From: an uncultured Bacteroidales bacterium
Lineage (GTDB): Bacteria; Bacteroidota; Bacteroidia; Bacteroidales; Bacteroidaceae
DNA: 33,985 nucleotides
Assembly: GCA_945787885.1 (NCBI GenBank)
Contig: CALZJF010000025.1
Span: 1-33,985 of the forward strand
Direction of reading: 5' to 3'
A program made the position numbers and the translations under genes. Position 1 is the first letter of the stretch. The number at the start of each line of letters is the position of its first letter. Shown here piece after piece: positions 20,817-33,985 of the stretch. The notes under the pieces are model-generated. The model had not been told where the DNA came from. It was given only the letters and a program-made list of their open reading frames with translations, and searched no databases.

Positions 20817-23423
20817 ATGAGAAAACAACTTTTCAACACCATACTTCTGGGCGCGGCATCTGCTCTCGGCGCATTCGCCCAGACTTCCGCGCAGCACGAG
20901 ATGCTCACCACCGATTCCTCCAAAGCTCCCATCGTAGAGCCTGCGCTGAATCATCTCGACGTGGATTTTGAGGCGGGCGAAACCTTCCTCGGAATCATGG
21001 CGAACACTGACTATTCCGTCAACACCGATGCAGAATGGGTGAGCGTGCGCCCCGTGAAGGGCGGCCTCGCCATCAAGACGGACTATTCTTACCTCATCGA
21101 CCCGCGCACTGCCAGCCTGACGCTCACCGCCGACAATGGGGCTTTCACCCGCGAGGTCAGCATCACGCAGCGCGCCAACAACAGCGCGGCATACATTCAG
21201 GGCGACTATTTCCTCGCCATCGGCAGCGCGGAGGCCAACCAGTCGCAGTCGGGGCAGGGCATCAAGAACACTTACGACGGCAACACCAACACGCTCTACC
21301 ATTCGCCCTACAGCATGGGCTCCACCTCCTTCCCCGTCACGCTCACTTATACGCTGAAGGAGGCTTCGCACGTGGACTACATGGTCTATACGCCACGGCA
21401 AGACGGCAACACGAATGGCAACTTCCGGGAAATCACCGTCGAGGTGGCTCTCGCCAGCAGTCCTTCCACCTGGACGAAGGTCTGCGATGAAGACCTCGGA
21501 GGCTCGTCGGCGGCATCGCGCATTGACTTCGGACAGACGGGCATGGACGATGTGAAGAAGATTCGCATCAGCGTCAGGAGCGGACAGAACAATTTTGCAT
21601 CCTGCGCCGAGATGGGCTTCTACGCGCGTAATTCAGAATTTTCTGACCTCGTGAAGAAATACTTCAAGAACTCCCTCTGCACCGAGCTTGCCGATGGCAT
21701 CGAGGCTGCCGATGCTGAGCAGATTTCCGACCCCTTTGTGCGGCAGCTCGTCAGCTACATGCTCTCCGGCAACTATTCCACGAAATACCGCGTCGGGGAA
21801 TACGAGGCCTACAAGCCGATCTACACCCTCCGCGATGAACTGAAGAACTCCAACCCCTACTGCGCCTACGAAAACCCCACGGGCATCTACTTCGAAAAGG
21901 GCCAGACGCTGGCCGTCTTCGTCGAGGGCATCACCACCATGGCTCCCATGCTCCGCATCTACTGCTTCGGGGAGGGCAACGATTTCCAGACCACGAGCAC
22001 GTATCCCCTCACGAATGGCGTGAACATCATTCAGACCACCACGCGCGGCAACGGCTATATCAGTTATTACACGCAGGATTGGGAGACGATTCCGCCCGTG
22101 AAGATGCACTTCGCCATGGCTACCGAGAATGGCTACTTCGACCTCGAACGCGGCGATACGAACGAAGACTGGGTCAACCTCCTTGCCAACGCCAAGAGCG
22201 ATGTCATTGACATCCGCTGCAAGCGCATGCAGGTGCCGGCACCGCTCAGCATCCTCCGCCAGCGCTGCCCGAAGAAGGGCGTAGAACTCGCCACCATCTA
22301 CGACAATGTCATCTATCGCGAACGCGAGGTGATGGGGCTTGTGCAGGGACTGCCGGGCTTCACGCCGGAACCCAAGAACCGCCAGTTCGCCCGCCCGACG
22401 GCATCGGGCATGTATGCCAGCACGGAGGGTGCCTACGCTGCCTTCGGATCCTTCGGCGAATGGTGCGACCCTGACAACTTCGGATTCTGGGGCATCGGCC
22501 ACGAACTGGGCCACAACAATCAGATCTGGAACGGCTTCAAATGGTCCGGATGCGGCGAGACCACGAACAACATCTACGCTTCCTGGGTGGAACACTGTCT
22601 GGGCAACGGCTACCACCGTCTGGAAGACGAAATCTCCGGCATCGAGGCTTACGCCAACATGCGCGGCGGACGCTTCAACGCCTACCTCGAAGAGGGCGTA
22701 CGCAAGGGTAAATCGTGGCAGCTGCAGGAGGGTCCGGACTACTACGGCAGCGAACTCAATGCCAACAATTCGCGCAACTATGACCATTTCGTCAAGGTCG
22801 TGCCGCTCTATCAGCTCAACCTCTGGACGCAAGACTGCCAGAAGTCGCCCAACGCCTTCGGCAAGGTCATCCAGGGCTATCGCACGCTGACCAACAATCC
22901 CTCTGACAATGGCAAGCAGCAAATCAACTTCATGCGCAACTTCTGCGATTCCACGCAGATTGACTTCCTCGACTTCTTCGAGCGCGCTGGCATGCTCCGC
23001 CCCATCAAGGCTTACATCGAAGACTATTCGCCGGGCTGGAACATCATCACTGAGGAGCAAATAGCCGAACTCCGCGCTTACATCGCTGAGAAGAACTATC
23101 CGAAAGCTCCCGCCGGGCTCAACTTTATCAACGCCTACAACATCGACAACTTCCGCAACGAGGTGCCGCTCGACACGGATCAGACCTTGGGCAAGGGTTG
23201 CGCTAAGGCGGGCAACTTCGTCACCGTCACGCACTCCTACTGGAAGGGTGCCGTCGGCTTCGAGGCCTACGATGCTGACGGCAATCTCACGGCCATCAGC
23301 ATGTACGGCCTGGGCGACAGCCAGAAATCGTCGAAGCGCACGAAGGCTCTCTTCCCTGCCGGCTCTGCCTACCTCATGGCGGTGGGCTACGATGGCACTC
23401 GCGTGAAGATTTATTCCAAGTAA
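20817..23423 (+). CDS. Secreted M60-family metalloprotease with BACON and discoidin-like domains (mucinase-like)
   Basis: An 868-residue exported protease. After the signal peptide (MRKQLFNTILLGAASALGAFAQ), residues about 40-125 look like a BACON domain (TDAEWVSVRP ... SLTLTADNGAFTREVSITQ). Residues about 130-265 look like an F5/8-type or CBM32 carbohydrate-binding domain. The M60 zinc motif is HELGH (H562, E563, H566) with the third ligand E581 in WSGCGETTNNIY, fitting HExxHx(8-28)E. M60 proteins of gut Bacteroides cleave mucin-type O-glycoproteins, so I infer mucin or O-glycoprotein as the substrate. It is the second gene of an operon with the LRR protein and is followed by a good terminator. 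Confidence 0.92.
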   Translation: MRKQLFNTILLGAASALGAFAQTSAQHEMLTTDSSKAPIVEPALNHLDVDFEAGETFLGIMANTDYSVNTDAEWVSVRPVKGGLAIKTDYSYLIDPRTASLTLTADNGAFTREVSITQRANNSAAYIQGDYFLAIGSAEANQSQSGQGIKNTYDGNTNTLYHSPYSMGSTSFPVTLTYTLKEASHVDYMVYTPRQDGNTNGNFREITVEVALASSPSTWTKVCDEDLGGSSAASRIDFGQTGMDDVKKIRISVRSGQNNFASCAEMGFYARNSEFSDLVKKYFKNSLCTELADGIEAADAEQISDPFVRQLVSYMLSGNYSTKYRVGEYEAYKPIYTLRDELKNSNPYCAYENPTGIYFEKGQTLAVFVEGITTMAPMLRIYCFGEGNDFQTTSTYPLTNGVNIIQTTTRGNGYISYYTQDWETIPPVKMHFAMATENGYFDLERGDTNEDWVNLLANAKSDVIDIRCKRMQVPAPLSILRQRCPKKGVELATIYDNVIYREREVMGLVQGLPGFTPEPKNRQFARPTASGMYASTEGAYAAFGSFGEWCDPDNFGFWGIGHELGHNNQIWNGFKWSGCGETTNNIYASWVEHCLGNGYHRLEDEISGIEAYANMRGGRFNAYLEEGVRKGKSWQLQEGPDYYGSELNANNSRNYDHFVKVVPLYQLNLWTQDCQKSPNAFGKVIQGYRTLTNNPSDNGKQQINFMRNFCDSTQIDFLDFFERAGMLRPIKAYIEDYSPGWNIITEEQIAELRAYIAEKNYPKAPAGLNFINAYNIDNFRNEVPLDTDQTLGKGCAKAGNFVTVTHSYWKGAVGFEAYDADGNLTAISMYGLGDSQKSSKRTKALFPAGSAYLMAVGYDGTRVKIYSK

Positions 23424-25721: not shown

Positions 25722-25751
25722 TTGGACAGAAGGATATAATTTGTAAATTTG
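25722..25751 (+). promoter_or_regulatory. Putative promoter of the tubulin-like operon
   Basis: TAAATTTG (25744-25751) is an exact -7 box. TTGG at 25722-25725 lies 18 bp upstream, near the spacing expected for the -33 element. The first gene of the operon starts 67 bp downstream. Confidence 0.6.
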
Positions 25752-25818: not shown

Positions 25819-26364
25819 ATGCTCAGCCTCATCACTCCCAGCTTCGCCGACTTGCTGCTTGGCCTTCTCATCGGCTTCGGAGCCATCGTCGTGCTCATTG
25901 TCATCAGTCAGCTTCTGCGGCAACGCAGCTCTCACAGCATCTACAGCATCGGCATCAGCATAGCGGCGGGACTCTTCATCGCCGTGCAGGCAGGACTCTG
26001 GCTCAAGGCCGACGAACTCATAGAAGAGGCGGAACGAAAGGCAGCGATGCTGAACGGGGTGAAAGACATGGTGGACAACACCGTGCCGACGGACAGCATC
26101 GCCAACAGGATGGGCGAAGAGGTGGGGGAGATAGTCAGTGCGGGCAAGGAGGGACTGTTCAATCTGTTCTCCCTCTATGGCGCCGACATGATTGACCGCC
26201 TGCGCGACTTCCGCAATCACCGCATACTCTGGGGCGGCGTGGCGATGGCGCTGGGCCTCGTGCTGACGATGCTTGCCATGGGCGCTGGCGGCAGAAGCGG
26301 CGCGTCGAGGCGCGTCAGGCCCGTGGGCATGCACTCGTCGCGGGGCGGCAGAGGCAGGAGATAG
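25819..26364 (+). CDS. Small membrane protein, first gene of the tubulin-like operon
   Basis: I do not recognise a family. The 181-residue protein has two N-terminal transmembrane helices (about residues 7-31 and 41-62). A polar middle of about 65 residues with many Asp/Glu/Lys follows (DELIEEAERKAAMLNGVKDM). A third helix (ILWGGVAMALGLVLTMLAMGAGG, about 132-155, quoted by its first and last words) and a strongly basic, Gly/Arg-rich tail of about 25 residues complete it. The tail could contact nucleic acid, lipid head groups or acidic proteins. It precedes the tubulin-like gene by 68 bp on the same strand, behind a good promoter. I infer that it is a membrane partner of the GTPase. Confidence 0.8.
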   Translation: MLSLITPSFADLLLGLLIGFGAIVVLIVISQLLRQRSSHSIYSIGISIAAGLFIAVQAGLWLKADELIEEAERKAAMLNGVKDMVDNTVPTDSIANRMGEEVGEIVSAGKEGLFNLFSLYGADMIDRLRDFRNHRILWGGVAMALGLVLTMLAMGAGGRSGASRRVRPVGMHSSRGGRGRR

Positions 26365-26432
26365 AAGAAGAGAGGGGAGAAGAGAAAAGACAAACGCGAA
26401 ATACACATATATATAATATAAACCTTAACACT

Positions 26433-29400
26433 ATGGCAGAAAACCACATTATCGTAGGACTTGGCGGTACGGGCGGAAAAGTGTTGCGTACCTTCAAGAT
26501 GAGAATGTTTGAGGAATTCCCCAAATTTGAAGAACGCCAGAAGCAATCGGTAGCACTGCTCTACGTCGATACCACGATGGAGATGATGGGCATCGGACGC
26601 GATGACTTCAACGTGATGGGTCAGGATGCGTCGTTCACACAGAATGAGTTTCTCTTTATCAAGAGCAGCGCAGTGACGGAGATTATCGACAATGTAGAGA
26701 ACTATCCGCAGCTGAGGGGCATCGTCGGCAATGCTGCTGCCACTCGCAATGCCATCGGAAATCTTGGCGAGGCTGCCGGACAGAAGCGCCGCGCCGGACG
26801 CTTGCTCTTTGCAAAGAACGCCACGGAATACGTGAATGCGCTGAGAGATGCCTTCGCGCGCTGCAATACGGTGTCGCACAATAACAGCAAAATCGTACAC
26901 ATCATCGCGGGTCTGTGCGGCGGAACGGGTTCGGGCTCCATCATCGATGCCGTGGCCCAGACGCGCAAGACATGGCCCGACGCGAAAATCCTTGTCTATG
27001 TGATGATTCCGGAGCGCGACCTCCCGAAATCTGACATGGACAAGGGCAGATACTACCAGAACGGCTATGCCGCCCTCAGAGAACTCAACGCGCTGCAGAC
27101 GGGACAGCTCAAGCCGCACGATGTGTCGGGCAACGGCGAACCGCTCGACCTCTTCAATCCCGCTATCAAGGGCGTGGCAAACGGCATCACCGTCTATAGC
27201 AACGACAACGAGAACGGCATCACCGTCAATTCGTTTGAAGACCTTCCGAAAATCGTCAGCGACTATATCTATGCGCGCGTCTTCATCATCGACCCCACTA
27301 CGCCGGGAGTAGGCGACATCATCCGTGCCTACAACTCTGAGAACATGGACGACTTCGCCTATGAGTTTGACGAGGCTTACCCCGTGGAAGACGGCGTGGA
27401 AATGCCCATCAAGCGCACGAAGCTCGTCAGCTCGTTCGGACTCAAGCGCGTGGTCTATCCGGAATTCCGCATCCTGAAGCATATCGTCTATACCACGGGC
27501 GTGGATGTGCTCGAACAGAGCCTCTACGGAAACTGGGTGGAGAATGTGGGCTATGTGGATGAGGAGGTGAACAAGGACTATCGCGGCACGTATCTCAAGG
27601 AGGAGAACCTGGAACGCTGGAAGCTGAAGCTCGAATATCTGAGCTACGACAAGAAGGTGCTGGAGAACGATGAGCCCGTAGATACCTTCCGCGACATCTG
27701 GCAACGCCGCGTGCAGGACTGGGCGGAAGACTGCAAGCAGTACAGCTGCCCCCTGACGGAACTTCGCAACACGATCGACAAGATGTTCTGCACTGACTTC
27801 CGCGGCACGCAGAAATCCGTGGTCGATTACTTCAAGGGAAAGGTGCAGGCCCGAAAGGACATTGCCAGCGAAATCCGCAGAAACATTGAACGCGAAATCT
27901 TTGAACTCTGGAAGACGGGCGTCATCTCCATACTCGAACTCAAGCGCATCAGCGAAACGCTCTATGACTACGTCAACCAAAACCTACAGCAGGATCTCCG
28001 CAAGGCTATCAGCGAGAACGACAAGAAGAAGAAGGAACTGGACGAAACACTCGCAGCCATCCTCGACGACTGGCGCAACGTGGCCATCCTGCTACGCGCC
28101 CTGAACCGTCCGAAGTACTATGTGGAGTATCAGGAATGCCTCGTGAACTACTATGAGGTGTGTACGAAGGTGGAGGCTTATCAGTTTGCCCGCCAAATCC
28201 ATGCTTCGCTCGATGCTGAAATGCTGGCCATGCGCGACGAGATTGCGCAGTTCTGCGAGTTTATCTCTAAGGCTATCACCTCGACGAAGGAACTCGTGGC
28301 GGCTCAGCGCAAGAAGAACCCCGGGCTTGAGGATATGCGCGGAGCAGAAATAGAGGTCAGCGAGGAGCAGGGCATTGTCAGGTTTGAAGAGAAGCTACGC
28401 ATTGACAAGCAGGTGATTGACACCATGTCGGCAAGCCTGCGCAGGGAAATCGTGGGCGAGGCTCCCTTCACCAGCTTCGCACGCCTCATGCAGGGAAAGA
28501 CCATACAGAGCATACGCGCTGCCTTCGACACCACCATCGCCGAACAGGTGAAGGAGCGGCACAACGAGTTGCCTAAGACGGAGACGAAGGTGCTCGGACT
28601 GAGTGTGCTCACGCAGCTGCAGCAAAAGCTTGACGACAACAAGAAAATCAATGAGTTCGCTCACGACATCTTGCAGCAAAGCGGCGTTTACATCAATCTC
28701 GACAAGAACCAAATGACCATGTCGCTCGACAACAACCCGCTGCCGCAGGAGGGAACGAATGTCAATATGAGCGAAATCTTTGTCTGCCTGCCGAAACCTG
28801 AAACGGACGAACAGAAAGAGTTTGCGAAAGAACTCGCCACGGCTTTCAGAAATCAGGCTCCGCAGGGCATAAAGGCTCCGACCGTCTATACCGAGAGCAC
28901 GCGGAAGAACGAAATCTTCATCGTCACCATCAAATATGGCTTCCCCATGCGTGCCATCAGCTGGCTGGCTGACTATAAGAAGCGTTACGAGAACCTTCTC
29001 AACCAGCGCGACGACAACTCTAACCGCACGAACCGCATACTCCTCCACAGTGAGGGAACAGGCGAAACGCTGCCGAGCATATACGCGCTCCCCGCTGAGG
29101 CTGCACGCCGCCGCAAGGAGGAGATTCGCCAGCAGTTGCAGGCAGAACGCCAGCAGCCGCAGCAACAGCCGTTTGGGCCGCAGCAACAGCCGTATGGGCC
29201 GCAGCAACAGCCGTATGGGCCGCAGCAACAGCCGTATGGGCCGCAGCAACAGCCGTACGGGCCGCAGCAACAGCCGTACGGGCCGCAGCAACAGCCGTAT
29301 GGGCCGCAGCAACAGCCGTATGGGCCGCAGCAACAGCCGTACGGGCCACAGCAACAGCCGTACGGGCCACAGCAAACCATGAACAAGGGAGTAGTGCCTC

Positions 29401-29675
29401 CTCCGCCGCCGCAGCCCGTAGTGAACCTGCACCTCTATGTCAATGGCGTGACGGAAGGTCCATACGACTGGAATGTCTGCAAGCAGAAGGTGGCTTTCGG
29501 ACAACTGACGAAAGACACCCTCGTCTGGGAAGATGGCATGGCAGGATGGATGCCTGCAGGACAAGTGGCAAAGCTGCAACTCCTCTTCGCGCCCACACCG
29601 CCGCCACCGCCCGTGCAGACTACGCCGCCTACACCGCCTACTCCCCCCATGCCGCCTACACCGCCCATGCCGTGA
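26433..29675 (+). CDS. Tubulin/FtsZ-like GTPase (Tubulin_2 type) with heptad tail, GYF_2 domain and proline-rich end
   Basis: A 1080-residue cytoplasmic protein. The N-terminal GLGGTGGKVLR (residues 9-19) is the first nucleotide loop. CGGTGSGS (162-169) is the tubulin signature loop that binds GTP phosphates, followed by DAV and MIPERDLPKS typical of the Tubulin_2 group. Residues about 440-700 are long, charged and helical. Residues 910-979 are ten heptads QQQPFGP/QQQPYGP. A short PPPPP stretch leads to a GYF_2 domain (about 999-1053: LYVNGVTEGPYDW ... LVWEDGMAGWMPAGQV), and the end is PPPPPVQTTPPTPPTPPMPP-like. Related bacterial FtsZ-like families have been proposed to remodel membranes rather than drive division. 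Here polymerisation is an inference. Membrane and MORN-protein genes flank it. Confidence 0.88.
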   Translation: MAENHIIVGLGGTGGKVLRTFKMRMFEEFPKFEERQKQSVALLYVDTTMEMMGIGRDDFNVMGQDASFTQNEFLFIKSSAVTEIIDNVENYPQLRGIVGNAAATRNAIGNLGEAAGQKRRAGRLLFAKNATEYVNALRDAFARCNTVSHNNSKIVHIIAGLCGGTGSGSIIDAVAQTRKTWPDAKILVYVMIPERDLPKSDMDKGRYYQNGYAALRELNALQTGQLKPHDVSGNGEPLDLFNPAIKGVANGITVYSNDNENGITVNSFEDLPKIVSDYIYARVFIIDPTTPGVGDIIRAYNSENMDDFAYEFDEAYPVEDGVEMPIKRTKLVSSFGLKRVVYPEFRILKHIVYTTGVDVLEQSLYGNWVENVGYVDEEVNKDYRGTYLKEENLERWKLKLEYLSYDKKVLENDEPVDTFRDIWQRRVQDWAEDCKQYSCPLTELRNTIDKMFCTDFRGTQKSVVDYFKGKVQARKDIASEIRRNIEREIFELWKTGVISILELKRISETLYDYVNQNLQQDLRKAISENDKKKKELDETLAAILDDWRNVAILLRALNRPKYYVEYQECLVNYYEVCTKVEAYQFARQIHASLDAEMLAMRDEIAQFCEFISKAITSTKELVAAQRKKNPGLEDMRGAEIEVSEEQGIVRFEEKLRIDKQVIDTMSASLRREIVGEAPFTSFARLMQGKTIQSIRAAFDTTIAEQVKERHNELPKTETKVLGLSVLTQLQQKLDDNKKINEFAHDILQQSGVYINLDKNQMTMSLDNNPLPQEGTNVNMSEIFVCLPKPETDEQKEFAKELATAFRNQAPQGIKAPTVYTESTRKNEIFIVTIKYGFPMRAISWLADYKKRYENLLNQRDDNSNRTNRILLHSEGTGETLPSIYALPAEAARRRKEEIRQQLQAERQQPQQQPFGPQQQPYGPQQQPYGPQQQPYGPQQQPYGPQQQPYGPQQQPYGPQQQPYGPQQQPYGPQQQPYGPQQTMNKGVVPPPPPQPVVNLHLYVNGVTEGPYDWNVCKQKVAFGQLTKDTLVWEDGMAGWMPAGQVAKLQLLFAPTPPPPPVQTTPPTPPTPPMPPTPPMP
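29160..29369 (+). repeat. In-frame 21-bp tandem repeat encoding ten QQQPYGP heptads
   Basis: Ten 21-bp units, nearly identical to CAGCAACAGCCGTATGGGCC(G), encode one QQQPFGP and nine QQQPYGP. Differences are almost all synonymous (TAT/TAC, CCG/CCA), suggesting recent expansion under protein-level constraint. The copy number could vary between strains. Confidence 0.97.
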
Positions 29676-29712
29676 GAAGGGGGACGATAACAGAAATAAC
29701 ATCACTTAACGT

Positions 29713-29748
29713 TCAGGTCGCAGGGCGAAGAAGGCCCTGCGGCCCTGA
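29713..29748 (+). terminator. Intercistronic hairpin after the tubulin-like gene
   Basis: CGCAGGGC (29719-29726) pairs perfectly with GCCCTGCG (29734-29741) around a 7-nt loop. TCAGG and CCTGA extend it. No T tract follows, so it is more likely an RNA-stability or partial-termination element between the tubulin-like and zinc-ribbon genes than a full terminator. Confidence 0.6.
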
Positions 29749-29785
29749 CTAATCCTTACATACACATATATATATATATAATATT

Positions 29786-30556
29786 ATGAGAAAGAGCGAA
29801 AGAAGAATACAGAAATACGGCAAGTGCATGAAGGAAGGATGCGAGAACTATCGCAAAGCACTACCCGTCGTGGGCGAAATGATTTGCCCGAAGTGTAAGC
29901 AGAAACTCATCGAATGCCCGCCACCGACTCCTCCAACGCCCATCTGGAAATATGTTGCTGGGGGCTGTCTCGCTCTGGCAGTATGCGTGGGCGGATATTA
30001 CGGCATTTCGAGCTGGCTGAACAGCTCCGACACGCCGAACACGGTGGTAGAAGAAAATCAAGGTGCTGCGAACGCGCCCGAACAGCTGCCTCAAACCGCT
30101 AACGAGCCAAAGGGAAAACAGCAGGAAGAACCGAAAGCACAGACTGACGACGATGGCGAAAAGCTCGTGGACCAAACGCTGAAGAACAAGGAAGCTGCTG
30201 AGGCTGAAGCTGCCGCCAAGGCAAAGGCTGAGGCTGAGGCCAAGGCTAAAGCTGCAGCTGAGGCGAAGAAGAAAAAGCAGCAGACATCCACCTCCACAAA
30301 GACTACTACCGAGACTACTCCTGCTGTGGCTGGCTCCATCAACCTGGGCTACGCCACCTACACGGGACAGACGAAGAACGGAAAGCCACACGGAAAGGGT
30401 AAGCTCGTCTATAAACAGACGCGCAAAATCGTGGCTTCCCAAAGTCATACCGCTGCGCCGGGCGACACCTACGAGGGACAATTCCGCGACGGAAAGGTTT
30501 CGGGAGGTCCAGGCGTATGGACGCATGGTGGCGTACAGACCACTATCAACCCATGA
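29786..30556 (+). CDS. Zinc ribbon - transmembrane - MORN repeat protein
   Basis: I know of no named function. The 256-residue protein begins with a putative zinc ribbon (C14-x4-C19 and C34-x2-C37, with C44 nearby). A juxtamembrane proline stretch, CPPPTPPTP (44-52), is followed by one transmembrane helix (about 56-75). A Gln/Glu-rich stretch and an Ala/Glu/Lys helix likely to be coiled (about 128-166) follow. The end has two MORN-like repeats (YTGQTKNGKPHGKGKLVY and YEGQFRDGKVSGGPGVW). The predicted topology puts the zinc ribbon in the cytoplasm and MORN outside. The N-terminal part would be available to the tubulin-like protein. Its stop overlaps the next start (ATGA at 30553-30556). Confidence 0.82.
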   Translation: MRKSERRIQKYGKCMKEGCENYRKALPVVGEMICPKCKQKLIECPPPTPPTPIWKYVAGGCLALAVCVGGYYGISSWLNSSDTPNTVVEENQGAANAPEQLPQTANEPKGKQQEEPKAQTDDDGEKLVDQTLKNKEAAEAEAAAKAKAEAEAKAKAAAEAKKKKQQTSTSTKTTTETTPAVAGSINLGYATYTGQTKNGKPHGKGKLVYKQTRKIVASQSHTAAPGDTYEGQFRDGKVSGGPGVWTHGGVQTTINP

Positions 30557-31644
30557 AACGCTTTTTCCTGACCGCACTGCTGGGGCTGGCAGCCATGATG
30601 GCCGTGGCTGCCGGCTTCCGCACTGTGCGGCTGGCAGAGATTGCACGAGCAGTCAGCCTGCCCACTAAGGCTATGGAGGGAAGCACTGACAGTATCTTCT
30701 TCCGTAACCGCCCGCTGCGCATTTGCTATAACCAGACGGGAGACATCGCACACATCGGCTACAAAATCTTCTCTGACCCGCAGCTGGAATATGCAGCACC
30801 GCGGCCCTTGCTCATCTATCTCGAACGCTATCTCCTCGAAACGCAGATTCCGCACCTCAACGACCGTCTGGTCTATGCTGAAGAAGTGAAGGTGAGAGAG
30901 GGCAAAATCAACATGCTCTTCCGCGTCAAGGACGATACGCCCATAGGCGTCGAGGAGAAACAACGCAAAATGTATCGCATCACCTTTGGAATGACCGAGG
31001 GCGAGAACCTTGTGCTGGACGTGAAGTGTAACAGCCAGTTCATGCTGGGGGCAGACATCGTGGAACTGGAACGCAATATGATGCGCGACTTGCCCAGATT
31101 TCCCCAAACACTGACGGCTGAAGACTGGAGTGCTGAGGCTACGACGCGCATTGATGACAATCTGTTGATTTGCAGAGAAGCTGCCTTCTTGGACAAGGAC
31201 ATTCGGAGCGATGTGTATCTAACGGTCGATGGAAAAGGCAAACGCAGCATTTACTGCAACACCAAGAATCCTTGGCGCAGCACACAAAACATTTTCCTCA
31301 CGGGCGAGACGGAAATGCCCGTGCCCGTGAAGGCATACGTCAGATGCTACGAGGCGAGCGCCGATACGCTCAGCATTTCGCTGCAACAGCTCCTGGGCTA
31401 CTGCCGACAGGAGGGGTGCCGACTCTATTTCGGCATCAAAAGCCAGGACGACTCGCTCGTTCACGCCACGCTCTATGCCCTTTCAAACGAAATGTCATTC
31501 TGCCACGTCGTTTCCGCAGAGATTCCTACCTCGTTCATACAGCAAATAGCGCAGAAAAGCCTCACCGCGCCCATCGCCTGCACCATCTATCCCTACGTGC
31601 CACTCCACTATCTGGACGAAAAATTCTTCAGGATAGCTGACTAA
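30553..31644 (+). CDS. Exported or membrane-anchored protein of unknown function
   Basis: I do not recognise a family. I choose ATG 30553, twelve codons inside the longest frame. It overlaps the upstream stop as ATGA, indicating translational coupling, and it opens with a signal or anchor sequence (MKRFFLTALLGLAAMMAVAAG). The 363-residue mature part is mixed alpha/beta with no recognisable catalytic motif. It includes repeated charged segments (YAEEVKVREGKINMLFRVKDDTP) and several Cys (CNSQ, CREA, CNTK, CYEA, CRQEGC). Repeated beta-strand patterns in residues 120-230 suggest a beta-sandwich-like part. Tight coupling to the zinc ribbon-MORN gene suggests they form a complex across the inner membrane. 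Confidence 0.78.
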   Translation: MKRFFLTALLGLAAMMAVAAGFRTVRLAEIARAVSLPTKAMEGSTDSIFFRNRPLRICYNQTGDIAHIGYKIFSDPQLEYAAPRPLLIYLERYLLETQIPHLNDRLVYAEEVKVREGKINMLFRVKDDTPIGVEEKQRKMYRITFGMTEGENLVLDVKCNSQFMLGADIVELERNMMRDLPRFPQTLTAEDWSAEATTRIDDNLLICREAAFLDKDIRSDVYLTVDGKGKRSIYCNTKNPWRSTQNIFLTGETEMPVPVKAYVRCYEASADTLSISLQQLLGYCRQEGCRLYFGIKSQDDSLVHATLYALSNEMSFCHVVSAEIPTSFIQQIAQKSLTAPIACTIYPYVPLHYLDEKFFRIAD

Positions 31645-31703
31645 GCCATCGCATGCCGCCCCCCTACTCCCAACGAACCATCTAACCCCACTGAAAACGA
31701 GAC

Positions 31704-32405
31704 ATGAAACAGAGACTAACATCCATCATCACGATGGTCTGCGCGCTCTTCATACACTGCTCCCTACTTTCTGCACAGAACAATGAAGAGATGAAGCGCA
31801 CCATCAACAGCATCAAGAAAGACAATAGCTATATCTATGCTGAAACCACCGCCGAAACGCCAGAGGCCTCGCAGAAATTGGCAGAGGAAATCCTGATGAA
31901 GAACGTCAAAGAGTGGGCCATGAGCCAGAGAAAACTCAAGAAAGCTGACCACCTCATCATCAAAAACACCAAAAACGCCATGGAGAGCATGGCTCTGCCG
32001 AGAGGAAACATGTTCAGATGCTTCGTCTATGTCAGCAAGAAGAACATCGAAGGCGCAGACAATGCCATGACCACTGCCAACGAGGGCAAGGCCGATGCCA
32101 ATGCTCCTGCCGCAACGCCCTCGCCTGCCACTCCCGACATCGTGACAAAAGTGATGGCATGCAAGAATTTCAATGAGCTGAAGGCTTGCATGACGAAGGC
32201 AAAGATAGACAAAGCCATCGAAAACTATGATGCCTTCGAGAACATTGACAATCACGACCCTTACTATATGGCCATCTACAACCGCCAGTATCAGGTGGTG
32301 GCAGTGCTTACGCCTGGCCCTGACCGCACGAACGTAGCGACGGGACAGCCTGACGCCGTCAAGAACTATAGCGGATGCGGTGCCATCTGCTTCCGCCTGC
32401 CATAA
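31704..32405 (+). CDS. Secreted protein of unknown function
   Basis: A 233-residue protein with a clear signal peptide (MKQRLTSIITMVCALFIHCSLLSAQ). The first mature half is helical and polar (NSIKKDNSYIYAETTAETPEASQKLAEEILMKNVKEW). This 'YIYAET..T..EAS..A...L' pattern faintly resembles small envelope proteins of the LPP20/DUF-type, but I cannot assign it. An Ala/Pro/Thr-rich linker (about 128-150) precedes a C-terminal domain with the block MACKNFNELKACMTKAKIDKAIENYDAF. It ends in SGCGAICFRLP, whose two Cys could form a disulfide. It lies 59 bp after the previous gene on the same strand. Confidence 0.78.
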   Translation: MKQRLTSIITMVCALFIHCSLLSAQNNEEMKRTINSIKKDNSYIYAETTAETPEASQKLAEEILMKNVKEWAMSQRKLKKADHLIIKNTKNAMESMALPRGNMFRCFVYVSKKNIEGADNAMTTANEGKADANAPAATPSPATPDIVTKVMACKNFNELKACMTKAKIDKAIENYDAFENIDNHDPYYMAIYNRQYQVVAVLTPGPDRTNVATGQPDAVKNYSGCGAICFRLP

Positions 32406-32439
32406 ATTCTCGCCAAGATAAATAGAAAGACGGACTAAA

Positions 32440-32630
32440 GGTAGGTTCCATCAATTAGCTGGTGATGTGTTCGCGGCTATCGTGCCGTAGGTCCTTGATT
32501 TTCATGAGGGAGCGTAGCGGGCTACGTGACCGGATGAAAACCCCAAAAGCCTACGGTGCGGGAGGCGTGAAGGCATCCAAGTGAAACAAGAACACTGCCT
32601 TCCCTTGAAAACTAACTTACAGAATCTACC
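32440..32630 (+). repeat. Palindromic element copy G (191 bp, complete, with 4-bp flanking duplication)
   Basis: The left end is GGTAGGTTCCATCAATTAG. The right end CTAACTTACAGAATCTACC (32612-32630) has diverged from it. TAAA abuts both ends as a direct duplication. The core GTAGCGGGCTAC is intact and the orientation equals copy D. It splits the last two genes of the tubulin-like cluster and ends 13 bp before the next ATG. Confidence 0.93.
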
Positions 32631-32643
32631 TAAAGACTAACAT

Positions 32644-33654
32644 ATGAGACGCAACATCCTCTTGTTTTTCCTCACGCTCATCACCATCCTCACGGCCCGC
32701 GCCGGCGATGTGAACGTGACGCTGACGACGTATGAATATGAATCGCGCCCCGCCCACGTGGATGTGGCAGCGCAGAATCTTGCCAAGCTCCTCACCGAAA
32801 TCAACCGCGCACAGGCTGCCAACCGCAGCGTCAATACGAGCGGCATCGCCATCGATGAATTGGGAAAGCAGACCATCGACGATATTTGGAAAACCTCTCC
32901 CTTCTACGTCGATGACGAAGAAATCGTAGAACGCTGCTGGGTGTTCTCCAACGGGGAACTCATGGTGTCGCACATTCCCCTCATCATCACACCGCAGGGT
33001 GAAGACTTCGGCAATGGCAGCTATCAGGAAGCCGTCGTGGAGTTCGACAAACGGGGCAGAATCAGCGATTTCCGCTTCGCCCTCAGCGCACAAATGAGCG
33101 AAAGCATGGAGCGCGCCGGCACCATCGCCACGAAAGAGCAGCAGATGATTATACTGAAAAACGTGGAATACTTCCGCACTGCCTACAATCGTAAGGACAT
33201 CGACTACATCGAAAGGATGTTTAGCGACGACGCGCTCATCATCACGGGCCGAGTGGTGAAGAAAGCCACCAACCTCGACGGGCGCATCACGCAGAAAAGC
33301 CGTGTAGAATACACCAAACAGTCGAAGGAACAATACATTGCCAACCTGAAAAAAGCCTTCCTCCGCAACAAGTGGATTGACGTTCAGTTTGAACCCATAC
33401 AGATTGGCGATACGCCGGAAGACGTTGTCTCGCGTTCGCAGAAGGACCCCACCAAGTTCGGCATTCGCCTCCGCCAGACTTGGCGTTCTTCCGGCTATAG
33501 CGATGAGGGATATCTCTTCCTGCTCTGGGAAATTCCTGAAAACGGCGGCGACCCCATCATACACGTCCGCACTTGGCAGCCTGACATCGTGGATGGCATC
33601 CGCGTAGAGCCTGACCCCGAAACCACCACCCTCGCAGGATTCGGAATACCCTGA
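32644..33654 (+). CDS. Secreted protein with NTF2-like region
   Basis: A 336-residue exported protein (signal peptide MRRNILLFFLTLITILTARAG). Residues about 175-285 contain LKNVEYFRTAYNRKDIDYIERMFSDDALIITGRVV, whose pattern (Y..AYN..D...I...F.DDA.I) is typical of the NTF2-like/SnoaL fold used as a binding cone. The N-terminal half (YEYESRPAHVDVAAQNLAKLLTEINRA) is unassigned. The final part has a Trp-rich strand pattern (RLRQTWRSSGYSDEGYLFLLWE). Proteins of this type are typical Bacteroidales envelope unknowns. It is the last gene of the tubulin-like cluster, separated from the rest only by repeat copy G. Whether it still shares a transcript is uncertain. Confidence 0.75.
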   Translation: MRRNILLFFLTLITILTARAGDVNVTLTTYEYESRPAHVDVAAQNLAKLLTEINRAQAANRSVNTSGIAIDELGKQTIDDIWKTSPFYVDDEEIVERCWVFSNGELMVSHIPLIITPQGEDFGNGSYQEAVVEFDKRGRISDFRFALSAQMSESMERAGTIATKEQQMIILKNVEYFRTAYNRKDIDYIERMFSDDALIITGRVVKKATNLDGRITQKSRVEYTKQSKEQYIANLKKAFLRNKWIDVQFEPIQIGDTPEDVVSRSQKDPTKFGIRLRQTWRSSGYSDEGYLFLLWEIPENGGDPIIHVRTWQPDIVDGIRVEPDPETTTLAGFGIP

Positions 33655-33670: not shown

Positions 33671-33830
33671 GGTAGGTTCCATCAATTGGCTTGCGATGGC
33701 TGCGCGGCCATCGCGCCGCAGGGGTTTGTTTTTCATGAGGGAGCGTAGCGGACTATGCTACTGAATGAAAACCGATAACCTACGGTGCAAAAGGCATGAA
33801 GACATCGCAAGCTAATTGATGGAACCTACC
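33671..33830 (+). repeat. Palindromic element copy H (160 bp, rearranged)
   Basis: Both ends carry the same arm type (GGTAGGTTCCATCAATT then GCTTGCGATG on the left, and its complement CATCGCAAGC then AATTGATGGAACCTACC on the right). The inverted pair is thus about 28 bp with one mismatch. The usual right arm (AACACTGCCTTACATTG) is missing, which explains the shorter length. The flanking tetramers are CAAA and TAAA, three of four identical. The core has changed to GTAGCGGACTATGC. Confidence 0.88.
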
Positions 33831-33878: not shown

Positions 33879-33985
33879 GGTAGGTTCTATAAATTAGCTT
33901 GCGATGTATTTGCGGCTATCGTGCCGTAGTTTTTTGTTTTTCACGAGGGAGCGTAGCGGGCTACGTGACTGAATGAAAAACAAAA
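33879..33985 (+). repeat. Palindromic element copy I (left part, truncated by window end)
   Basis: It begins GGTAGGTTCTATAAATTAG, continues GCTTGCGATGTATTTGCGG, and reaches past the core CGTAGCGGGCTACG. The right half lies beyond the window. Its orientation is that of copy D. Confidence 0.92.

Follow-up and report, generated by a model that had tools for sequence, protein, structure and literature searches.

An accessory Bacteroidota operon that places a Tubulin_2 gene among conserved genes for membrane and exported proteins

The FtsZl1 (Tubulin_2) family of tubulin-superfamily proteins was described in 2010, with a vWA gene in most of its operons, and was proposed to act in membrane remodelling (Makarova and Koonin, PMC2875224). 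A member from Synechocystis, Sll0445, co-fractionates with proteins of pilus assembly and of the photosystems, and interruption of sll0445 or its neighbours impairs phototaxis (PMC9880817). We analysed a further member, designated TUB, which is encoded at positions 25819–33654 of contig CALZJF010000025.1 from an uncultured Bacteroidales bacterium (the whole stretch of 33,985 nucleotides is hereafter called the window) together with two inner-membrane proteins (TM3 and ZMORN) and three exported proteins (X1, X2 and X3). The protein family is already known; what appears to be new is this partner set around a Tubulin_2 protein, including the GYF domain borne by TUB itself. Checking the window for open reading frames (ORFs) confirmed the six-gene, same-strand run that a first-pass annotation of the sequence had described, all six ORFs lying on the plus strand. 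The features are as follows.

25722..25751, plus strand: Bacteroidota-type promoter-like site, TTG-N19-TAAATTTG, of the −33/−7 form (sequence, pattern count)
25819..26364, plus strand: TM3, 181-residue inner-membrane protein with three hydrophobic helices (ORF, hydropathy, homologues)
26433..29675, plus strand: TUB, 1080-residue protein of Tubulin_2 (FtsZl1) type, with Pro/Gln-rich repeats and, at the C-terminus, a GYF_2 domain (ORF, Pfam, alignment)
26448..27509, plus strand: Tubulin_2 GTPase-like domain of TUB (PF13809)
29430..29576, plus strand: GYF_2 domain of TUB, residues 1000–1048 (PF14237, 2.1e-13)
29786..30556, plus strand: ZMORN, 256 residues, with a zinc ribbon, a proline-rich stretch, one transmembrane (TM) segment, an Ala/Lys/Glu-rich linker and a C-terminal MORN part
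29825..29896, plus strand: four-cysteine zinc ribbon of ZMORN (C14, C19, C34, C37)
30359..30412, plus strand: MORN repeat of ZMORN (PF02493, 2.7e-5)
30553..31644, plus strand: X1, exported, 363 residues, no known family (ORF, signal peptide; ATGA overlap with ZMORN)
31704..32405, plus strand: X2, exported, 233 residues, faintly LPP20-like (ORF, signal, Pfam of relatives)
32644..33654, plus strand: X3, exported, 336 residues, with an NTF2-like C-terminal half (signal-like N-terminus; DUF4440/Cds6_C in relatives)

The conservation of this gene set was surveyed in loci selected by TUB alone. Searching contigs with residues 1–489 of TUB returned 69 loci, whose best segments are 48–88% identical to the window TUB. 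Two of them, L035 and L051, carry the names Clostridium sp. and Lachnospiraceae, possibly in error; all others are assigned to Bacteroidota groups. When the window proteins served as queries, all four of ZMORN, X1, X2 and X3 were found in 52 of the 55 loci having at least 4 kb downstream, the loci without the full four being L055, L064 and L082. The first-pass annotation had proposed surveying Bacteroidales neighbourhoods for the same five partners and had held that the idea would fall if the neighbours were not conserved; conservation proved near-complete and in order, family profiles finding TM3 in 57/65, ZMORN in 58/58, X1 in 55/56, X2 in 53/55 and X3 in 55/55 loci. In these profile counts, loci short of DNA were excluded for each gene, L063 was without a usable TUB frame, and the profiles were built from the same loci that they count, so that they are not independent, as the window-protein search is. 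The TM3 gene lies directly upstream of the TUB gene, and the median gaps (37 bases from TM3 to TUB, the following ones 39.5, 5, −4 and 15) are operon-like. After X3, two further families, C0 and C1, were detected by profile in 50/52 and 29/47 loci, respectively. Across the flanks surveyed, which were mostly upstream and up to 8 kb long, no other neighbour family occurs in more than five loci, and since the flanking families are shuffled in this way, the cassette appears to be kept together while its place changes.

By its sequence, TUB is a member of the Tubulin_2/FtsZl1 family, its match to PF13809 reaching 167.3–169.1 bits (E 7.6e-49 to 1.2e-49) against a cut-off of 27 and spanning profile positions 1–354 of 356; the Pfam check suggested at the outset was thus passed. 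Family alignments comprised the window protein with 57 of 63 TUB, 55 of 56 X1, 51 of 52 X2, 47 of 54 X3, 51 of 57 ZMORN and 47 of 58 TM3 relatives, while those of C0 and C1 comprised the protein of this genome with 30 of 33 and 26 of 29 relatives within a limited length range, and that of the NTF2 part the window with 42 of 52. The two tubulin loops noticed in the 1080-residue protein were located as T1 (GLGGTGG, residues 9–15) and T4 (CGGTGSGS, residues 162–169), with their glycines invariant in the 58 aligned TUB proteins. The whole of GLGGTGG is invariant in these 58, its leucine varying among the 69 proteins of the TUB group, and GGTGSG is invariant in both the 58 and the 69. Moreover, the loop glycines except G15 and G168 are also invariant in four more distant Tubulin_2 proteins, and D46, R119 and N210 in all 73 (the 69 and these 4). 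The loci L143 (5480–7804) and L155 (2087–4411) carry, directly before the full copy, a second TUB of 774 residues in which T4 is missing and T1 is altered; this shorter copy is possibly an inactive partner in a two-subunit assembly.

TUB was also considered as a division FtsZ and rejected as such, because the two FtsZ genes of the genome lie elsewhere. These stand in tandem beside an FtsA-like gene (recognised by eye) at G000:C4:63249-65921 (L162 3250–5922), and both products carry the T7 motif (NLDFRD and NLDFQD). Two or more PF00091 matches over cut-off were found in 18/21 genomes of the window's genus, side by side in 13, and in 1/41 genomes of a phylum sample, namely the window's own.

Compared with the FtsZl1/vWA operons of 2010, the present locus shares an N-terminal Tubulin_2 domain with T1 and T4 in a protein of about 1000 residues, membrane and exported partners, and the separateness of the protein from division FtsZ, whereas its partners are TM3, ZMORN, X1, X2, X3, C0 and C1 and its TUB bears a C-terminal GYF domain. 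No VWA, kinase or P-loop GTPase match was obtained for the six window proteins or the scanned members of X1, X2, X3, ZMORN, C0 and C1, in a scan that left out the TM3 homologues. Judged by these genes, the operon is not of the 2010 vWA type. A different Tubulin_2 operon, with a probable VWA exported protein (match 2e-4, just under cut-off), was seen in another species of the same genus (G128, L139 5830–11187). The first-pass annotation knew of no described system with this exact combination; our literature search likewise found no account of the gene set, the supplementary gene tables of the 2010 paper lying outside that search, although FtsZl1 operons with other partners have been known since then. 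Since the 2010 FtsZl1 alignment includes a Bacteroides caccae member (PMC2875224), some of the partners may be among the unnamed families of that work. Sll0445, likened here by description, is another Tubulin_2 protein with a link to an envelope machine; its neighbours Sll0446 and Sll0447 are annotated as FtsA-like and DivIC-like, and the section describing them mentions none of the partners of TUB (PMC9880817). By analogy, the Sll0445 data fit a tie of Tubulin_2 to an envelope machine and are silent on the partners of TUB.

Both inner-membrane partners have features that suggest their orientation. TM3, described from the outset as a three-helix membrane protein, indeed has three hydrophobic helices in 181 residues. 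Helices 2 and 3 are separated by a large loop, and the C-terminal tail is rich in Arg, the last 35 residues containing a median of 10 Lys and Arg versus 2 Asp and Glu in 73 homologues. By the positive-inside rule, the tail would be cytoplasmic and the long loop outside. A DUF2919 match of TM3 fell below cut-off (21.7 versus 27.2 bits). The zinc ribbon-TM-MORN architecture read from the window for ZMORN was borne out: the four cysteines are invariant in 52 aligned proteins, Pfam searches of which gave MORN in 28/52, Zn_Ribbon_TF in 14/52 and Ig-like Big_2 in 6/52, and the family profile finds structures of MORN1, at best with 1.6e-9. The TM segment is marginal in the window (hydropathy 1.56 over 19 residues, 1.64 over 17) and clear in the family, where 67/69 proteins reach at least 1.6 over 19 residues. 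The linker is variable and in the six proteins just mentioned holds the Big_2 domains. Moreover, L146, a region without TUB, encodes a protein that has a lipobox (by eye) and contains, of ZMORN, the MORN part alone; it is accompanied by X1, X3, C0 and C1. This suggests that a single exported module comprises the MORN part together with the X proteins, and that ZMORN would be its membrane-crossing form. Because of the TM3 Arg tail, the Big_2 domains in the linker and the lipobox protein of L146, a topology with the zinc ribbon inside and the MORN part outside the inner membrane is supported.

The GYF_2 domain of TUB had gone unnamed in the first-pass annotation. Its closest solved relative is 7z3c (1.2e-7), named 'Adventurous gliding motility protein X' by its depositors, that is, GltJ/AgmX of the gliding focal-adhesion complex of Myxococcus xanthus. 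Weak matches to the NCBIfam GltJ model (NF033761) occur in TUB and ZMORN (18.7 and 20.4 bits versus 450), failing the equivalog level, and that of ZMORN lies in low-complexity sequence. We take the architecture of the 7z3c protein to be a zinc ribbon, a GYF domain and a TM segment. GltJ also works with a GTPase, as an effector of MglA (PMC12288465). The present system differs in having the zinc ribbon and the GYF domain on two proteins and in its tubulin-like rather than Ras-like GTPase, and the TonB-like C-terminus reported for GltJ (PMC8262864) is not seen in TUB or ZMORN.

The three proteins encoded after the zinc-ribbon gene, X1, X2 and X3, carry signal-like N-termini, in agreement with their description as exported proteins. 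X2 relatives gave an LPP20-like match in 1/52 at 0.0096, and the C-terminal half of X3 matched DUF4440 in 26/48 and Cds6_C in 20/48 aligned proteins at E ≤ 0.01 (best Cds6_C 2.5e-6); Cds6_C was also matched by 7 of a set of 9 X3-type proteins, at best with 27.0 bits at a cut-off of 27. In being exported and, weakly, in its C-terminal half, by the Cds6_C matches of its relatives, X3 resembles the periplasmic peptidoglycan-trimming proteins Csd6, Pgp2 and Bd1075, from which it differs in that no LD-carboxypeptidase match was found and its matches are mostly under the curated cut-off. The NTF2 domains of Pgp2 bind peptidoglycan (PMC8038945), and that of Bd1075 targets the protein within the periplasm, to one side (PMC8938487). 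C0, an exported protein of about 500 residues, gave CarboxypepD_reg (5/31), PEGA (4/31), Sel1 (4/31) and TPR matches, and C1, also exported and of about 250 residues, gave Gly-zipper_YMGG in 8/27. Against solved structures, X1, X2 and C0 produced chance-level matches or none, and NCBIfam searches of the six window proteins gave nothing above cut-off. Because the NTF2 likeness stands in one operon with PEGA and glycine-zipper proteins, the likeliest use of the exported set would be a hold on the wall or outer membrane.

Collectively, these features point, tentatively and at somewhat less than an even chance, to a scaffold of the tubulin superfamily in the cytoplasm, which a zinc-ribbon adaptor connects to exported proteins that are probably bound to the wall or outer membrane. 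TUB would bind GTP in the cytoplasm, perhaps as a filament or patch, and would be held to the inner membrane by TM3 and the zinc ribbon of ZMORN. Its GYF domain, in this subfamily, probably grips a proline-rich stretch, either that beside the zinc ribbon of ZMORN or the proline tail of TUB itself. ZMORN would span the inner membrane once, its linker and MORN part reaching into the periplasm and its periplasmic end meeting X1, X2, X3, C0 and C1, among which NTF2-like X3, C0 (some members with PEGA, TPR or Sel1) and C1 (some with a glycine zipper) are candidate holders of peptidoglycan or outer membrane. The nucleotide state or assembly of TUB may then serve to collect or place the exported proteins at one spot of the envelope, or their engagement may signal inwards, with local wall or outer-membrane organisation as the presumable function. 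The first-pass annotation had likewise proposed an internal filament or scaffold linked through the two membrane proteins to the exported ones; the membrane link, with zinc ribbon in and MORN part out, has gained from the analysis, while the filament has not, as will be seen from the alignment with FtsZ.

Several observations weigh against the scaffold. TUB shares with FtsZ the superfamily and the T4 loop, and FtsZ requires the T7 loop for hydrolysis. On hhalign comparison with 29 FtsZ proteins, TUB gave a probability of 21–23% (P ~0.001) with an alignment reliable only around T4, and no equivalents of T6-H7-T7 were identified. As for the GYF grip, a proline cluster beside the ZMORN zinc ribbon accompanies 46/54 GYF-bearing versus 2/15 GYF-less systems (Fisher p 4e-7), and yet gain or loss of GYF on the TUB tree amounts to one change, that is, one independent pair, for which reason we rejected the association as proof. 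(This set comprises 69 systems, window included, after dropping TUB proteins of 950 residues or fewer, loci without a called ZMORN, five loci that were fragments or duplicates, and copies with the same first 400 residues; the tree was a quick build with warnings of long branches, among them L156, L158 and L051.) Regarding the exported side, X1 gave no Pfam family match among 56 aligned proteins save a chance-like one in 1/56; window X3 itself has no Cds6_C match at E ≤ 1, the likeness of its relatives is mostly under the Pfam cut-off, and its best PDB match, Bd1075 (7o21), has an E of only 0.2. Furthermore, X3 is present in 81 of 251 genomes of the family, hence mostly without TUB, and X1-X3 pairs occur in six further TUB-less regions (L128–L132, L147), some of these genomes having TUB elsewhere, so that X1 and X3 are not dedicated to TUB. 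Finally, a glycine-zipper-like exported protein near a Paraburkholderia TUB, described below, has no significant match to the C1 profile.

The FtsZ comparison also bears on two other explanations. The alignment of FtsZl1 proteins with FtsZ in 2010 met the same limit, and filament formation was left open there (PMC2875224). The failure to identify a T7 loop would suit a GTPase switch that does not polymerise, TUB only binding nucleotide and relaying the state of exported sensors (X1–X3) inwards or outwards; the tandem TUB copies without T4 in L143 and L155, as a regulatory pseudo-enzyme pair, and the reuse of the exported module with other partners would agree with it. We nevertheless regard such a switch as unlikely, since a 1080-residue scaffold-like protein with a long tail would be unusual for this task and, according to the 2010 authors, filaments are formed by every superfamily member that has been characterised (PMC2875224). 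Conversely, membrane remodelling or vesicle budding would have TUB polymerise on the inner membrane and bend it, while the exported proteins would work on the outer membrane as vesicles are shed. Here the protein family and the presence of membrane partners are those of the 2010 proposal (PMC2875224), and the glycine zippers of C1 and a weak outer-membrane barrel match in one C0 of 31 point the same way, but the filament loops were not identified and the scan described above found no vWA, kinase or P-loop GTPase; this explanation, too, seems improbable.

The distribution of the operon was examined in genome samples, of which that of the family overlaps the 69-locus one. Among the 251 genomes of the family sample, 28 have a TUB-core match, 27 of them strong, with X3 near TUB in 26 of these 27 (the exception being G207; the operon of G132 is divided between two contigs); the 28th, G112, has a weak TUB match of another type and no X3, and the other genomes among 82 listed have a C-terminal TUB match only, mostly to GYF. 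A TUB-core match was found in 5/295 genomes of the order sample, the window's own included, with 11 more having GYF matches only, and 1/296 of a phylum sample, again the window's genome, passes E 1e-20. Within the genus, TUB occurs in 1/16 genomes. The operon is thus accessory and belongs to one family with its near kin; TUB homologues lie, for example, on contigs of Xylanibacter brevis ATCC 19188, Phocaeicola faecium Sa1YUN3 and Caecibacteroides pullorum AN421. Such patchiness and the variable location would be expected of an anti-phage or conflict system, a cassette killing the cell or sealing the envelope on attack. TIR-domain proteins with weak Lcl_C matches (L128 5239–6540, L147 10167–11462) lie beside TUB-less X1-X3 operons, and on a Meiothermus taiwanensis plasmid (NZ_CP021131.1, L180 4294–12371) a gene of another Tubulin_2 type adjoins a vWA gene, with a brxL-annotated gene nearby and, upstream, a Swt1-type HEPN gene, so that the surroundings of this vWA/Tubulin_2 pair look defence-like. 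Against this, PADLOC-DB 2.0.0 matched 0/6 window proteins at E ≤ 1, no relative was found in the viral contigs or phages searched, and a scan of 96 of 241 flanking proteins, with no matched control, matched 43 families, each of the 25 listed coming from one protein. A defence role is not supported by these tests (PADLOC, flanks, viral contigs and phages), and we consider it very unlikely.

The two halves of the operon are reused separately. The X1-X3 pair of L129, the only TUB-less pair whose neighbours were scanned, is adjoined by Sel1 and TPR proteins. In addition, the NTF2 half of X3 ends proteins of about 620 residues, some of which start with an LPP20-like part (L136, L137) and some of which contain WG repeats (L133, L135); the fusion of LPP20-like and NTF2 parts in one protein suggests that X2 and X3 may work together. 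On the cytoplasmic side, one record, a Paraburkholderia plasmid unannotated at this place, encodes a TUB (profile E 3.9e-128) that shares 26% identity with the query across 91% of the latter. The next gene specifies a zinc-ribbon-TM protein that matches the ZMORN profile (1.8e-9) in the ribbon/TM part only and ends in a TPR-like part (by eye); upstream lies the exported protein with the glycine-zipper-like stretch (by eye). The TUB/zinc-ribbon-TM pair thus appears to be kept with other exported genes across phyla. A bolder form of the scaffold, which we hold to be somewhat unlikely, is a tubulin-superfamily cytoskeleton acting through the whole Gram-negative envelope, in which TUB would pull a zinc-ribbon adaptor that clamps exported wall or outer-membrane proteins, the exported set being exchangeable between lineages (X1-X3-C0-C1 in Bacteroidales, another set in Paraburkholderia). 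Tol-Pal, Glt and bactofilin-linked wall editing are trans-envelope machines, of which the TUB system would be a tubulin-type counterpart.

Several details of the locus remain to be given. Long antisense ORFs overlie much of the cluster; the plus-strand frames are supported by homologues, domains and low ratios of nonsynonymous to synonymous substitution (dN/dS 0.12–0.21 versus the closest relative, L027, for the 3/6 genes with unsaturated dS). The X1 ORF as listed starts at 30517, but we place the start at 30553, because the signal peptide opens with the ATG contained in the ATGA (30553–30556) that X1 shares with ZMORN, an overlap already noted inside the run. The −7/−33 promoter announced in front of the cluster fits its form at 25722–25751. 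In 9/68 loci the first gene is preceded by such a site, versus 7/1360 mononucleotide shuffles, and a stricter promoter pattern gave 0 matches within the window; the site is plausibly real, though not conserved among loci. Six genes are indeed present, as first described, but the full operon probably has eight, from TM3 to C1. The window stops 331 bases past X3, within repeat copies, and for this reason C0 (72% identical to the C0 of the nearest locus) and C1 lie on another contig of the genome, C43, near the end of which they are adjacent. That end shows an apparent edge of the same repeat, and from synteny we infer that C43 continues the window contig (C25). The partly palindromic repeat of about 100 bp lies at 1621–1723, 32440–32542, 33671–33773 and 33879–33979 of the window, with one copy between X2 and X3 and two after X3 at the contig end, and has at least 42 matches in the genome, 41 near full length (40 of 185 candidates scored). 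At 20817–23423, the window also encodes an M60 peptidase that has an F5/8 type C match and, narrowly below cut-off, a match to BACON (Pfam); M60-type enzymes often act on mucins.

Although the Tubulin_2/FtsZl1 family has been known since 2010, our literature search found one experimental report, that on Synechocystis Sll0445, which gives no mechanism. The operon supplies a fixed and testable list of partners for such a protein, and the adaptor pair of TUB and the zinc-ribbon-TM protein is seen in two phyla. If it is true that TUB organises exported proteins, the system would represent a tubulin-based route to control of the envelope from inside the cell.

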